Below are positions 9,219-46,780 of a stretch of DNA of 64,000 bases, piece by piece. A program made the translations under genes and the position numbers. Under the pieces are notes generated by a model. The model saw only the letters and a program-made list of their open reading frames with translations. It was not told where the DNA came from and made no database searches. Numbering within the stretch: position 1 is the first letter of the stretch; each line of letters opens with the position of its first letter. This DNA is from Sulfitobacter aestuariivivens (GTDB lineage: Bacteria > Pseudomonadota > Alphaproteobacteria > Rhodobacterales > Rhodobacteraceae), in NCBI RefSeq assembly GCF_014763045.1, contig NZ_JACTAG010000002.1:806001-870000 (forward strand). Direction: 5' to 3'.

Positions 9219-9731
9219 ATGGCAGACGGGCGCAGCCCCACACACGGCAGCGGCGAAAGCCTGCTTTTCCTGACGGATGAACAATTGCGGCAGGGAATCG
9301 AGGCGATGTTCTTTGCCTATCGTGGCTTCACGGCTGATCCGGACCGCATTCTGGCGGATATGGCCTATGGCCGTGCGCACCACCGCGCGATCCATTTCAT
9401 CAACCGCGCCCCCGGCACGACGGTGAATAATCTGCTCAACATCCTGGGGGTCACAAAGCAATCGCTGAACCGTGTCTTGCGCACATTGATTTCCGATGGT
9501 CTTGTTCAAAGTCGGGTAGGACACAACGACAAACGCGAACGGCATCTGTTTCTGACCGACGCCGGGCGCGCGCTGGAAACGCAACTGTCCGACGCCCAGC
9601 GGGCGCGCATGCGCGCCGCCTACCGCGCGGCAGGACCAGACGCGGTGGCGGGGTTCCGCAGAGTTTTGGAGGCGATGATGGACCCGGAAATGCAAGCCAG
9701 TTACACCCGCCTCAAGGAGAGTGCTACATGA
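9219..9731 (+). CDS. petP: MarR family transcriptional regulator, PetP-like
   Basis: A 170-residue winged helix-turn-helix regulator. The recognition region is LLNILGVTKQSLNRVLRTLI (about 75-95), followed by the wing VGHNDKRERHLFLTDAGR. GAGG six bases before ATG 9219 supports this start over the one 12 bases upstream. It overlaps petR by ATGA. The pair matches the petP-petR genes known upstream of the cytochrome bc1 operon in Rhodobacter capsulatus, but petABC is absent here. The name rests on this gene pairing and the family match. Confidence 0.75.
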   Translation: MADGRSPTHGSGESLLFLTDEQLRQGIEAMFFAYRGFTADPDRILADMAYGRAHHRAIHFINRAPGTTVNNLLNILGVTKQSLNRVLRTLISDGLVQSRVGHNDKRERHLFLTDAGRALETQLSDAQRARMRAAYRAAGPDAVAGFRRVLEAMMDPEMQASYTRLKESAT

Positions 9732-10429
9732 GCGAAATGGATGCCCATCTGCTGATCGTCGATGACGACGAACGCATCCGCACGCTTTTGCAGAAATTCC
9801 TGATGCGCAACGGGTTTCTGGTGACCGCTGCCCGCGACGCCGCCCACGCGCGGCGCATCCTGTCGGGTCTCGATTTCGATCTGATCGTGCTGGATGTGAT
9901 GATGCCGGGGGAAGACGGGCTATCGCTGACAAGATCCCTGCGTGAAACAATGCAGACCCCGATCCTGCTGCTGACTGCCAAGGGCGAAACGTCGAACCGT
10001 ATCGAAGGGCTTGAGGCGGGTGCGGATGACTATCTGCCCAAACCGTTTGAGCCCAAGGAATTGCTGCTGCGGATCAATGCGATCCTGCGGCGGGTGCCGG
10101 ATACGTCGGCAGAAGATGCCGCGCCCAAGGTGTTGTCGCTGGGCCCCATCCGCTATGACATGGAGCGTGGCGAGATGTGGCAGGGGGATGCACTGGTTCG
10201 GCTAACCGCCACCGAAATCCAGTTGATGAAGATCTTCTCTGCCTGCCCGGGTGAGCCGTTGAGCCGCGCAAAGCTGGTTGAGGAATTGGGTCGGGACCGG
10301 GGGCAGGCGCAGGAACGCGCGGTTGATGTCCAGATCACCCGCCTGCGGCGCAAGATCGAGGATAATCCGAAACAGCCGCGCTATCTGCAAACGGTGCGCG
10401 GTGCGGGCTACATGCTGGCACCTGATTGA
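9728..10429 (+). CDS. petR: OmpR-type response regulator, PetR
   Basis: A 233-residue protein. The receiver domain (1-120) has the acidic pair in VDDDERI, the phosphorylatable aspartate in IVLDVMMPGEDG and the conserved lysine in PKPFEPKELL. The C-terminal winged helix (about 138-230) ends in YLQTVRGAGYML. No histidine kinase is adjacent. In R. capsulatus PetR is needed for cytochrome bc1 expression, so a link to respiratory and photosynthetic electron transport is likely. Translationally coupled to petP by ATGA. Confidence 0.85.
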   Translation: MSEMDAHLLIVDDDERIRTLLQKFLMRNGFLVTAARDAAHARRILSGLDFDLIVLDVMMPGEDGLSLTRSLRETMQTPILLLTAKGETSNRIEGLEAGADDYLPKPFEPKELLLRINAILRRVPDTSAEDAAPKVLSLGPIRYDMERGEMWQGDALVRLTATEIQLMKIFSACPGEPLSRAKLVEELGRDRGQAQERAVDVQITRLRRKIEDNPKQPRYLQTVRGAGYMLAPD

Positions 10430-10439
10430 GCTGTTGATT

Positions 10440-10485
10440 GGGGGCCAGCCCCATAAACCCCCGGGATACTTTGGGCCAGAAGATT
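10440..10485 (+). repeat. Palindromic repeat family, copy 1 (petR-xseB gap)
   Basis: GGGGGCCAGCCCC, a short variable spacer, CCCCCGGGATACTTT, then GCCAGAAGAT. The same modules occur at 41610-41657 and, in part, 45371-45409. The element lies in the 128-base gap between petR and xseB, reading in the direction of transcription. The GGGG/CCCC arms can fold. Confidence 0.75.
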
Positions 10486-10557
10486 GGCAAGCCAGCGTCT
10501 GGCGGGTCTCTTTGTTCCCCGCTATTGTCCCGGAGAACGCGTTTGGAAAGTGCAAAT

Positions 10558-10800
10558 ATGACCGATACCCCCGTGAATGAGATGAGTTTCGAAGTAGCCA
10601 TGGCCGAGCTTGAGCAGGTGTTGGGTCAATTGGAGCGGGGAGATGTGGCGCTGGACGAGAGCATCGCGCTTTATGAACGGGGTGCGGCGCTGAAGGCGCG
10701 GTGCGAGGCCAAGCTGAAAGAGGCCGAGGAAAAGGTTGCCGCCATCACTCTGGATGCTGACGGCAACCCGGTGGGGACAAAGCCTGTCGACGGGGTCTGA
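10558..10800 (+). CDS. xseB: Exodeoxyribonuclease VII small subunit
   Basis: An 80-residue helical protein forming, with XseA, the ExoVII single-strand DNA exonuclease. The family core is clear: SFEVAMAELEQVLGQLERGD, then LDESIALYERGAALKARCEAKLKEAEEKV. I chose MTDTPVNEM because it gives the normal length; upstream in-frame codons run back through the repeat element. It stands directly before ispA and dxs, the standard alphaproteobacterial order. Confidence 0.93.
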   Translation: MTDTPVNEMSFEVAMAELEQVLGQLERGDVALDESIALYERGAALKARCEAKLKEAEEKVAAITLDADGNPVGTKPVDGV

Positions 10801-41606: not shown

Positions 41607-41609
41607 TCA

Positions 41610-41657
41610 TCTTCTGGCTAAAATTATCCCGGGGAGCCCGAGGGGCTGGCCCCTCGG
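41610..41657 (-). repeat. Palindromic repeat family, copy 2 (bchH-bchL gap)
   Basis: On the minus strand: AGGGGCCAGCCCCT, spacer, CTCCCCGGGATAATTTTA, then GCCAGAAGAT. It shares the order and sequence of modules with copy 1 at 10440-10485 and is oriented along the bchH-bchL transcript. Confidence 0.75.
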
Positions 41658-41687
41658 TCTTACAGCAGCAAACTGAACACGTTCCCC

Positions 41688-45189: not shown

Positions 45190-46737
45190 TCATCGCGCAA
45201 AATGGGCCTTCGCTTCGTAAAGTGTGTCGAGGCTGATCTCGTTCAGCCCCCTTTCTGCGGCAAAACTCTCGGTATTCCGCCGCGCCTTGCCGCGCACAAA
45301 AAACGGGATCTTCTTCAACTCACGCTCAGCGGTATCAAGCCAGATAACCTCGCCCGGATTCTTTTGCAGGCCGGAAATATCCCGGGGGGTCTGGGGGGCT
45401 GGCCCCCCATCCACGCTCGCCGCAGGCGCATGACCGCCATGATGGCTTGGCCCGGCGGCATCGTTGAATTCGAAATCCTCGCGGAACATGTGCAACAGAT
45501 GCTCTTCCAGCCCCATAACCAGCGGATGCACCCAGGTATCGAAAAGCACATTGGCCCCTTCGAACCCCATCTGCGGGGAATAGCGCGCGGGGAAATCCTG
45601 CACATGCACAGGCGCAGAAATCACCGCGCAGGGGATGCCCAGACGCTTGCCGATATGACGCTCCATCTGGGTGCCCAAAATCATTTCGGGCTGAAGCGCC
45701 TCAATGACCTTCTCGACTTCAAGGTAATCATCCGTGATCAAAGCCTCGACGCCAAATTCTTTGGCCAGCGCGCGGACAGGTCGGGCAAATTCACGGTTGT
45801 AGCAGCCGATGCCCGCAACCTCGAAACCCATCTCATCGCGTGCCACGCGCGCAGCCGCCTGCACGTGCGTACCGTCCCCGAAGATAAAGACGCGCTTACC
45901 CGTCAGGTAGGTGCTGTCAACAGACGCCGCCCACCAGCGCTGACGCGCACGGGTATCGTCCAGCGGCGCATCCGACCCGGAAAGCGCGCGCACTTCCGCG
46001 ATAAAGTCCTTTGTCGCGCCAGACCCGATGGGGATGGTTTTCGTATAGGGCTGATCGAACGTGCGTTCGCAATAGCGCGCGGCCTGTTCGCCGGTTTCGG
46101 GATAAAGCAGCACGTTGAAATGGGCCTGCGCCATGCGGCCAATGTCAGATGGGGTGGCACCCATGGGGGCGACCACGTTCACCTCGATGCCCAGCTCGAA
46201 CAACAGGTTGGTGATCTCTGCCACGTCGTCGCGGTGGCGAAAGCCCAGCGCGGTCGGGCCGATGATGTTGCACGACACGCGCGCGGTCTTTGCCATGGGC
46301 GCGGCCAGATGCCGGACGATCTGGAAAAACGTCTCGTCAGCGCCAAAGTTTTCCTTGCGCTGGTAGCTGGGCAATTCCAGCGGAATAACGGGAACGGGCA
46401 GGCCCATCGTTTCGGCCAGCCCGCCGGGATCATCCTGGATAAGCTCGGCCGTGCAGGACGCGCCAACGATGATGGCCTCCGGCTTGAACCGGTCATAGGC
46501 ATCCTGACAGGCCTGCTTGAAAAGCCCTGCCGTGTCGCTGCCCAGGTCGCGTGCCTGAAATGTGGTGTACGTCACAGGCGGGCGGTGATCGCGCCGTTCG
46601 ATCATGGTGAACAGCAGGTCGGCATAGGTGTCGCCCTGAGGCGCGTGCAGGACGTAATGCAGGCCCTTCATGCCCGTGGCCACGCGCATGGCGCCAACAT
46701 GTGGGGGGCCTTCGTATGTCCAGACCGTCAGCTTCAT
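45190..46737 (-). CDS. bchB: Dark-operative protochlorophyllide reductase, B subunit
   Basis: A 515-residue subunit forming with BchN the catalytic heterotetramer. Ligand D36 (in APQGDTYAD) and C95 (in GASCTAEL) occupy the positions known in R. capsulatus, where an aspartate unusually ligates the 4Fe-4S cluster. The start at [10 protein letters not shown] is the family start; the frame is open further upstream without meaning. Near residues 443-459, in the flexible linker before the C-terminal [15 protein letters not shown] domain, the coding sequence is a copy of the dispersed repeat, translated as [15 protein letters not shown]. Confidence 0.97.
45371..45409 (-). repeat. Palindromic repeat family, copy 3, inside bchB
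   Basis: On the minus strand: TGGGGGGCCAGCCCCCC, AGACCCCCCGGGATATTT, then CCGGCCTGCAAAAG. The first two modules match copies 1 and 2 closely; the third is diverged. The element is in frame and codes for a proline/glycine linker of BchB. Confidence 0.75.
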
Positions 46738-46780
46738 GAAGCCACCGTCGGGATTTGCATATTTTTGGAACATTGAAGGG

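Follow-up and report, generated by a model that had tools for sequence, protein, structure and literature searches.

A dispersed repeat of Rhodobacteraceae with a covarying third arm, a candidate intrastrand-triplex element, and its translated copy in bchB

REP and BIME elements are short hairpin repeats that lie between genes in many copies, and the DNA uptake sequence dialects of Neisseriaceae and Pasteurellaceae are species-specific, often placed at gene ends and sometimes within genes, and present in thousands of copies. The closest known counterparts of the element described here, going by the main text of PMC4666352, are the intrastrand-triplex repeats BoxC/PIT/TM_ECO. The BoxC/TM_ECO pattern, CCCTCNCCC N3-6 GGGNGAGGG N3 GGGNGAGGG, is of class II and has 9-nt arms; in the account of that text, the E. 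coli motif forms a stable triplex in vitro, in vivo footprinting gave no support for a stable triplex, and the authors, seeing no sign of a general role in regulation, suggested a link to genome instability (PMC4666352).

Here we describe a repeat of Sulfitobacter aestuariivivens and its bacterial family for which the reading we prefer, with a probability of roughly 0.55, is a family-wide dispersed intrastrand-triplex DNA element that would serve as a DNA-level site, read by a putative co-evolving factor, with the copy in bchB being tolerated. Comparison of sequences shows three-way covariation, a strand-neutral location at the 3' ends of genes, positions shared in conserved orientation, and tails bound to the genome.

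The element family and its copies in the window

A sequence-only reading of the window (the whole stretch of 64,000 nt of the S. aestuariivivens genome that was analysed) had proposed three copies of a palindromic repeat, two of them intergenic and the third in frame in bchB, the gene for subunit B of the dark (ATP-dependent) protochlorophyllide reductase. All three are present, with model extents slightly longer than proposed, and gene context and translation bear out their placement. The features are as follows.

10435..10486, + strand: element copy 1, intergenic, 5 nt past the + strand gene at 9728-10429 and ahead of the + strand gene at 10558-10800; ranked 4th of 49 by the covariance model
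41607..41659, - strand: element copy 2, intergenic, 28 nt downstream of bchH; ranked 10th of 49
45360..45412, - strand: element copy 3, in frame and translated in bchB, about residues 442-459; ranked 5th of 49
45403..45408, - strand: purine stem arm R of copy 3, GGGGGG (from sequence; role from covariation)
45399..45402, - strand: hairpin loop of copy 3, CCAG (from sequence)
45393..45398, - strand: stem arm Y1 of copy 3, CCCCCC (from sequence and covariation)
45384..45389, - strand: third arm Y2 of copy 3, CCCCCC, the mirror of Y1 and same-direction complement of R (from sequence and covariation)
45360..45383, - strand: GGGATATTT block and tail of copy 3, GCCTGCAAAAGA variant (from sequence and tail comparison)
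45190..46734, - strand: bchB, 514 aa from the start used, with the gene caller's start at 46773 (NCBIfam TIGR01278 and Pfam)

The bchB copy, first thought to lack the third sequence block, is a complete element whose GCCTGCAAAAGA tail variant also occurs at two further loci of the same genome (L110 and L118). Copy 1 has an ortholog in the congener G021 (L161), and copy 2 has orthologs in two other genera (L374 of G188 and L358 of G128).

In alignments the element is about 50 bp long, and the unit runs from an R-loop-Y1 hairpin through a few bases to Y2, GGG(A)TATTT, two to three free bases, and a purine-rich tail. Covariance models made from 15 and 18 own-genome copies found at least 49 matches in the S. 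aestuariivivens genome (E 0.01), with additional family matches beyond the 49 in a search with model R2, and matches in 108 of 149 genomes of a family sample (107 of 148 genera, own included; E 0.001), so that the repeat is far from confined to the copies first noticed. Within the genus, 21 of 25 genomes matched, with 0 to at least 45 matches each; these per-genome counts are lower bounds, being based on the best candidates scored, and the E-values are rough. Among 142 genomes sampled across the class, three besides the own genome matched, all weakly (26.6 to 30.7 bits; E 0.0001), and 118 were without a match. Most copies from other genomes were drawn from the best-scoring matches. A strict pattern scan across genomes returned two records only (Roseovarius aestuarii and Salibaculum halophilum), the pattern having been too strict.

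Simple patterns gave a similar picture within the genome: GGGGCCAGCCCC occurred 14 times against once for a reversed control pattern, and CCCCGGGATA 19 times against nine, with 15 of the 19 judged by reading to lie within an element. The 12-mer alone, with up to two mismatches, was not over-represented in the window (20 against a mean of 16.4), and the case for the element therefore rests on the whole unit. Searches of openly licensed PMC papers turned up no report of the element; single copies may be listed in the ITxF database or in the supplements of PMC4666352, which lie outside that scope, and the main text of PMC4666352 makes no mention of Rhodobacter, Roseobacter, Alphaproteobacteria, Paracoccus, or Ruegeria.

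Two variations in build were seen. At some loci (L119, L224, L228, L260, L279, L288, L317, and L371-L375) a small second hairpin takes the place of the connector between Y1 and Y2, and the length of Y2 is then about that of the stem. At others (L070, L091, L160, L163, L353, and L410) extra hairpins of the same kind, lacking a tail, adjoin full copies, as if half elements had been gained or lost.

A third arm that covaries with the stem

The palindrome of the sequence-only reading is real as a hairpin, but the description overlooked a third arm that covaries with it. Where a stem is mixed, Y2 mirrors Y1 and is hence complementary to R in the same reading direction, as in L126 (CTGAAGGGG-CCAG-CCCCTTCAG-ACTTCCCC-GGGATA) and L141 (TGGGAGA-CGCTG-TCTCCCA-AACCCTCT-GGGAATA). 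In alignment A4, hairpin pairing of R with Y1 showed 13 two-sided changes and parallel pairing of R with Y2 showed 11, each against a shuffle mean of 4.6 and reached in 0 of 500 shuffles. Antiparallel pairing of R with Y2 in the same columns gave two such changes against 2.0; slid by one column it gave nine, because the column pair 7-29 is then common to it and the parallel set.

For a larger comparison, arms were parsed from the model matches themselves, which replaced parsing by regular expression: 293 aligned matches (114, 95, and 84) were reduced to 267 by removing duplicates and those under 44 nt, and 265 copies from 62 genomes were parsed. Y2 matched at 88 of 129 non-G stem positions in this set (shuffle mean 12.8, maximum 23) and at 58 of 88 in the 223 copies outside the own genome (mean 8.3, maximum 16). 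In the larger set the antiparallel score, at 28 of 129, likewise exceeded its shuffles (mean 6.0, maximum 14), yet was far below the parallel one, and an RNA switch with two antiparallel partners was set aside on this low score. A protein-binding palindrome was likewise set aside, since it would not yield mirror arms. Y2 had T at 29 of the 38 inner A-T pairs of the stem and at 7 of the 1006 inner G-C pairs (Fisher p about 5e-42, a value that ignores relatedness). Of the 186 copies whose runs could be scored, 171 had runs of equal length in R and Y2.

Sites shared between genomes provided a further comparison. Where orthologous copies differed by A/G in R, Y1 showed the matching change in all 28 pair-by-position comparisons and Y2 did so in 18, the latter being three-way compensated changes spread over 11 of 34 groups of orthologs, within which the pairs are not independent. 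Counting against a triplex reading, Y2 had not followed the change in R in the other 10 of these 28 comparisons, and no clear rule governs Y2 at the 10 inner positions at which R has a pyrimidine.

Slippage in runs of G and C might in principle generate both the mirror arms and their matching lengths with no selection for a triplex. Most stems are pure G/C, in which mirror and direct repeats are indistinguishable, and among the 33 asymmetric 4-nt arms four were direct repeats, beside 22 mirrors and seven that were neither. Slippage and template switching, however, produce direct or inverted repeats rather than mirror repeats, and among the 74 asymmetric 5-nt arms with a perfect stem 50 were exact mirrors, none were direct repeats, and 24 were neither (41 of the 50 mirrors belong to two arm types, present in 13 and 11 genomes). 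With the three-way compensated changes also standing against it, we regard slippage as extremely unlikely. Since known copying errors give direct or inverted but not mirror repeats, the arms are most naturally read as the product of selection on the three-arm form.

The triplets expected from such a form are canonical, namely C.G-C and T.A-T in the pyrimidine motif, or G.G-C and A.A-T in the purine motif on the opposite strand. One strand would form a hairpin, with Y2 placed in the major groove next to R; alternatively, a purine-motif triplex may form on the opposite strand. In either arrangement the triplex would presumably form in the cell upon strand separation. As in repeats of the PIT kind, R, a complementary Y, and a mirror third arm are found on one strand and give canonical triplets.

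Placement, shared sites, and genome-specific tails

Copies lie mostly at the 3' ends of genes, are rare in promoter gaps, and show no strand preference. The 49 own-genome copies comprise 17 on the same strand and 14 on the opposite strand in co-directional gaps, 13 in convergent gaps, two in divergent gaps, and three in genes (two clear and one, L137, doubtful). The corresponding figures for 89 copies from other genera were 25, 30, 24, two, and one, with seven undecided, and 40 copies from two congeners (G021 and G019) included none in genes, 16 in convergent gaps, and four in divergent gaps; in G021, 3 of 20 copies lie in divergent gaps, against the 3'-end rule. Convergent and divergent gaps stood at 13 to 2 at own-genome copies against 4 to 16 elsewhere (p=1e-4), and at 24 to 2 against 3 to 15 in the other genera (p=4e-7); the other gaps in these loci and in the window are mainly co-directional or divergent. 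Gene calls came from a home-made caller whose codon model was trained outwards from the window, and the in-gene counts depend on it: a first calling that put 19 of the 89 copies from other genera in genes was rejected, as the open reading frames resembled antisense shadows, and the retrained codon model left one. The claim that copies run along the transcribed strand thus holds for the three in the window but not for the family. This combination of many dispersed, mostly intergenic copies without strand bias is again that of PIT-kind repeats.

Placement at 3' ends without a preferred strand favours a role at the DNA level. The same placement would also suit an RNA element of 3' untranslated regions, whether a terminator, a processing site, or an RNA triplex guarding the end of the mRNA, and pyrimidine-type triplexes can form in RNA, as the main text of PMC4666352 states. 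Against an RNA element, however, stands the lack of strand bias relative to the neighbouring genes. By eye, moreover, the hairpins of the three window copies are not immediately followed by a T run of the sort found in intrinsic terminators; single-strand folding of these copies was no better than that of shuffled sequences (z 0.87, -0.82, and 0.10), by a tool that cannot score triplexes, and the 64-kb window held no match to Rfam 15 at the gathering score. We therefore consider this explanation distinctly improbable.

At least 103 of the 265 parsed copies, in 34 groups, occupy positions common to another genome, with both flanks homologous; this number is a lower bound, as the comparison was made among retrieved copies. 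Pairs at shared positions had the same orientation in 156 cases and were inverted in three. The tails at these positions behaved otherwise than the sites: in the 98 of the 156 pairs that could be tested, tail identity was 0.60 between orthologs, 0.58 between non-orthologous copies of the same genome pairs, and 0.77 between a copy and the others in its genome, the tail being closer to its own genome than to its ortholog in 83 pairs. Among the 26 genomes listed with the most copies, agreement with the genome's own tail consensus was 0.83-1.00 in 23 (2 to 13 copies per genome, counting the copy compared), and it was 0.67-0.73 in the S. aestuariivivens genome, G021, and G019, which hold several tail types. 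Overall, tail identity was 0.66 within and 0.56 between genomes (label-shuffle maximum 0.619), a contrast weakened by the genomes with several tails. By these comparisons the positions are old and the tails change in concert.

Minor tail types occur in the S. aestuariivivens genome beside the main ones, at L130, L133, L135, and L136; some are AAAAGGGTGAA-like, and another, GGAAAGATGAAGG, is also found in genera G122 and G200. Such minor types have perhaps arrived by transfer between species.

Shared positions with genome-specific tails would also be produced by a selfish, REP-like element that spreads and re-homogenises by copying itself onto sites already occupied, since replacement of the whole element yields both. 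Stem changes would then be swaps between stem classes and not compensated mutations. Several features fit such copying: one and the same stem class may turn up in several genera joined to different tails, stems are no more alike within genomes (identity 0.768) than between them (0.815), and the tail-less extra hairpins lie beside full copies at some loci. Weighing against it, the Y1 transposase PF01797, of the kind that moves REP elements, was absent from the own genome (E 0.001), with the control detected in 5 of 14 genomes; orientation is conserved to the extent given above; and we know of no mechanism for such exact replacement of a whole element. REP-like copying is in our estimate unlikely, albeit a serious contender.

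On the preferred reading, of a DNA-level site, the triplex and tail together would form a site at the ends of transcription units, and a putative trans-acting factor would recognise it, its preference drifting between genera and the sites following. In a stronger form, the family would keep tens of sites under selection for an intrastrand triplex in the cell, with a putative co-evolving reader and genome dialects that extend to the copy in BchB; we hold this version tentatively, at rather less than even odds.

The linker copy in BchB and comparison with known systems

The bchB copy encodes, in frame, a hydrophilic peptide rich in Gly and Pro between the Pfam domains Oxidored_nitro (11-405) and PCP_red (465-509), with residues counted from 46734; frame and domains agree with the proposal of a Pro/Gly linker ahead of the C-terminal domain. 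A copy translated in the linker of an enzyme, as part of a genome-wide family, is a supported claim, and other in-frame cases exist: in the own genome, L134 lies antisense in an XdhA-like protein between Fer2_2 and FAD_binding_5, and in another genus (G121), L266 lies in an ABC-F-like protein before ABC_tran_CTD, both proteins being named from their Pfam domains.

BchB was detected in 18 of 58 genomes of the genus and 82 of 198 of the family. We compared 87 loci (18 from congeners and 69 others, with 12 further family matches left out) and read 82 linkers, five remaining unparsed. A linker element was supported by the model in 15 of the 82: five of the 18 congeners (E below 1e-4) and 10 others, eight of these with E below 0.01 and two weak (L324, 0.011; L288, 0.26). 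Three more (L307, L339, and L344) were recognised by eye, with no model match at the linker, and their tails are not best matched by their own genome. Linkers without the element look unrelated by eye, and the same segment conserved without the repeat was not seen.

Two side observations concern this locus. A second recurrent site for the element is found immediately upstream of bchB, where the preceding gene adjoins, on the strand opposite bchB (L042, L043, L048, L051, L054, L294, L295, L301, L307, L309, L333, L337, and L339). In addition, the linkers of congeners L046, L048, L049, and L051 (with L043 and L054 diverged) carry another stretch resembling a repeat, in most cases a hairpin of the GGCGCAAGCGCC type with GAGTTTAGAAAGCAAGATGAA after it; its pattern matched only the first four of these bchB loci among the 420 sequences searched.

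When bchB tails were scored against 62 genomes, no genome was better than the own in 13 of the 14 comparable supported copies, with one tie (G236, which has a supported linker, had no copy for tail comparison). Including the copies seen by eye, the own genome was unbeaten by best copy in 14 of 17, or in 13 of 17 when distinct tails were counted once, and came first by mean score in 11 of 17; for the S. aestuariivivens tail it ranked only 15th-16th by mean score. Counting distinct tails once moves G200 from first to third by best copy, although it is still first by mean, and leaves G049 tied with one genome; for G128, G140, G200, and G201 the comparison rests on a single intergenic copy each.

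These linkers could represent many separate insertions by a locally active subfamily, in the manner of Rickettsia palindromic elements. On the BchB tree the 18 labelled rows, which include the three copies seen by eye, are scattered, requiring 18 changes, at least six of them forced by starred branches, against 16.4 in shuffles, which implies many gains and losses; and the bchB tail mostly matches its own genome. The tail argument is weakened, however, by the intergenic copies at orthologous sites, which likewise match their own genome. Furthermore, all 18 labelled copies were found by reading to lie on the same coding strand and in one frame, with GGPAP..PRDISGQK-like peptides, even though several frames are open, and the element is rare in other genes. 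Separate insertion therefore seems to us rather unlikely. The single frame and strand, together with the pattern of shared sites with drifting tails, lead us to favour, from these sequence comparisons, an old linker copy that has often been lost. Under the DNA-level reading the bchB copy would be a tolerated site in a flexible linker, tolerated because one frame gives a hydrophilic Gly/Pro-rich peptide; and since the copy has the tail of its own genome, the protein linker would follow the DNA family.

If the stronger form of this reading is correct, the compensated three-way changes at orthologous sites would constitute evolutionary evidence that natural intrastrand triplexes form and matter in vivo. 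Work on the E. coli motif, according to the main text of PMC4666352, left open whether such triplexes form or have a role in the cell. In the present family the arms vary, and selection on the third strand can thus be read from covariation, with orthologous sites as ready test pairs. The tail dialects raise the question of what makes tens of fixed sites change together, and the bchB linker offers a protein sequence that can be observed following a DNA repeat. The bacterial family that carries the element includes laboratory-tractable marine species.

In its variants common to the copies of one genome, its placement at gene ends, and its occasional presence in genes, the element resembles DNA uptake sequences; it differs in being a structured 50-bp unit with tens rather than thousands of copies. 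An uptake signal was set aside on this low copy number, and we know of no link between the family and DNA uptake. With REP and BIME elements it shares short intergenic hairpins in many copies, and it is distinguished from them by the covarying third arm and by positions common across genera.

The sequence-only reading had likened the repeat to Rickettsia palindromic elements, which, in the passages of PMC10969869 that describe them, are also palindromic repeats translatable in frame inside housekeeping genes. That likeness fails on length and on frequency in genes, and position speaks against it: those elements measure about 150 bp and lie in frame in genes in nearly half of cases (PMC10969869), whereas the present unit is about 50 bp, is in genes in few of the copies counted above (the two clear and one doubtful of 49, 1 of 89, and 0 of 40), and combines a three-arm design with many shared positions of conserved orientation.

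The likeness to BoxC/PIT/TM_ECO, as these are described in the main text of PMC4666352, is closer: both are dispersed and intergenic with unbiased strands, occur in tens of copies, and combine an R-Y hairpin with a mirror arm and canonical triplets. The element is not BoxC/TM_ECO proper, since alignments A2, A4, and A5 show the order R-Y-Y and another sequence. TM_ECO is described there as class II, built of Y, R, and a reverse-Hoogsteen R; its arms are 9 nt long, its consensus is highly conserved, and it was commoner upstream than downstream of open reading frames (PMC4666352). The present element is, by comparison, R-Y-Y (class III, or class I on the complement) and biased toward 3' ends. 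Its core arms measure 4-6 nt and show both variation and covariation, it carries a block of GGGATATTT plus tail, the tails are not the same from genome to genome, and in genes a few of its copies are translated.
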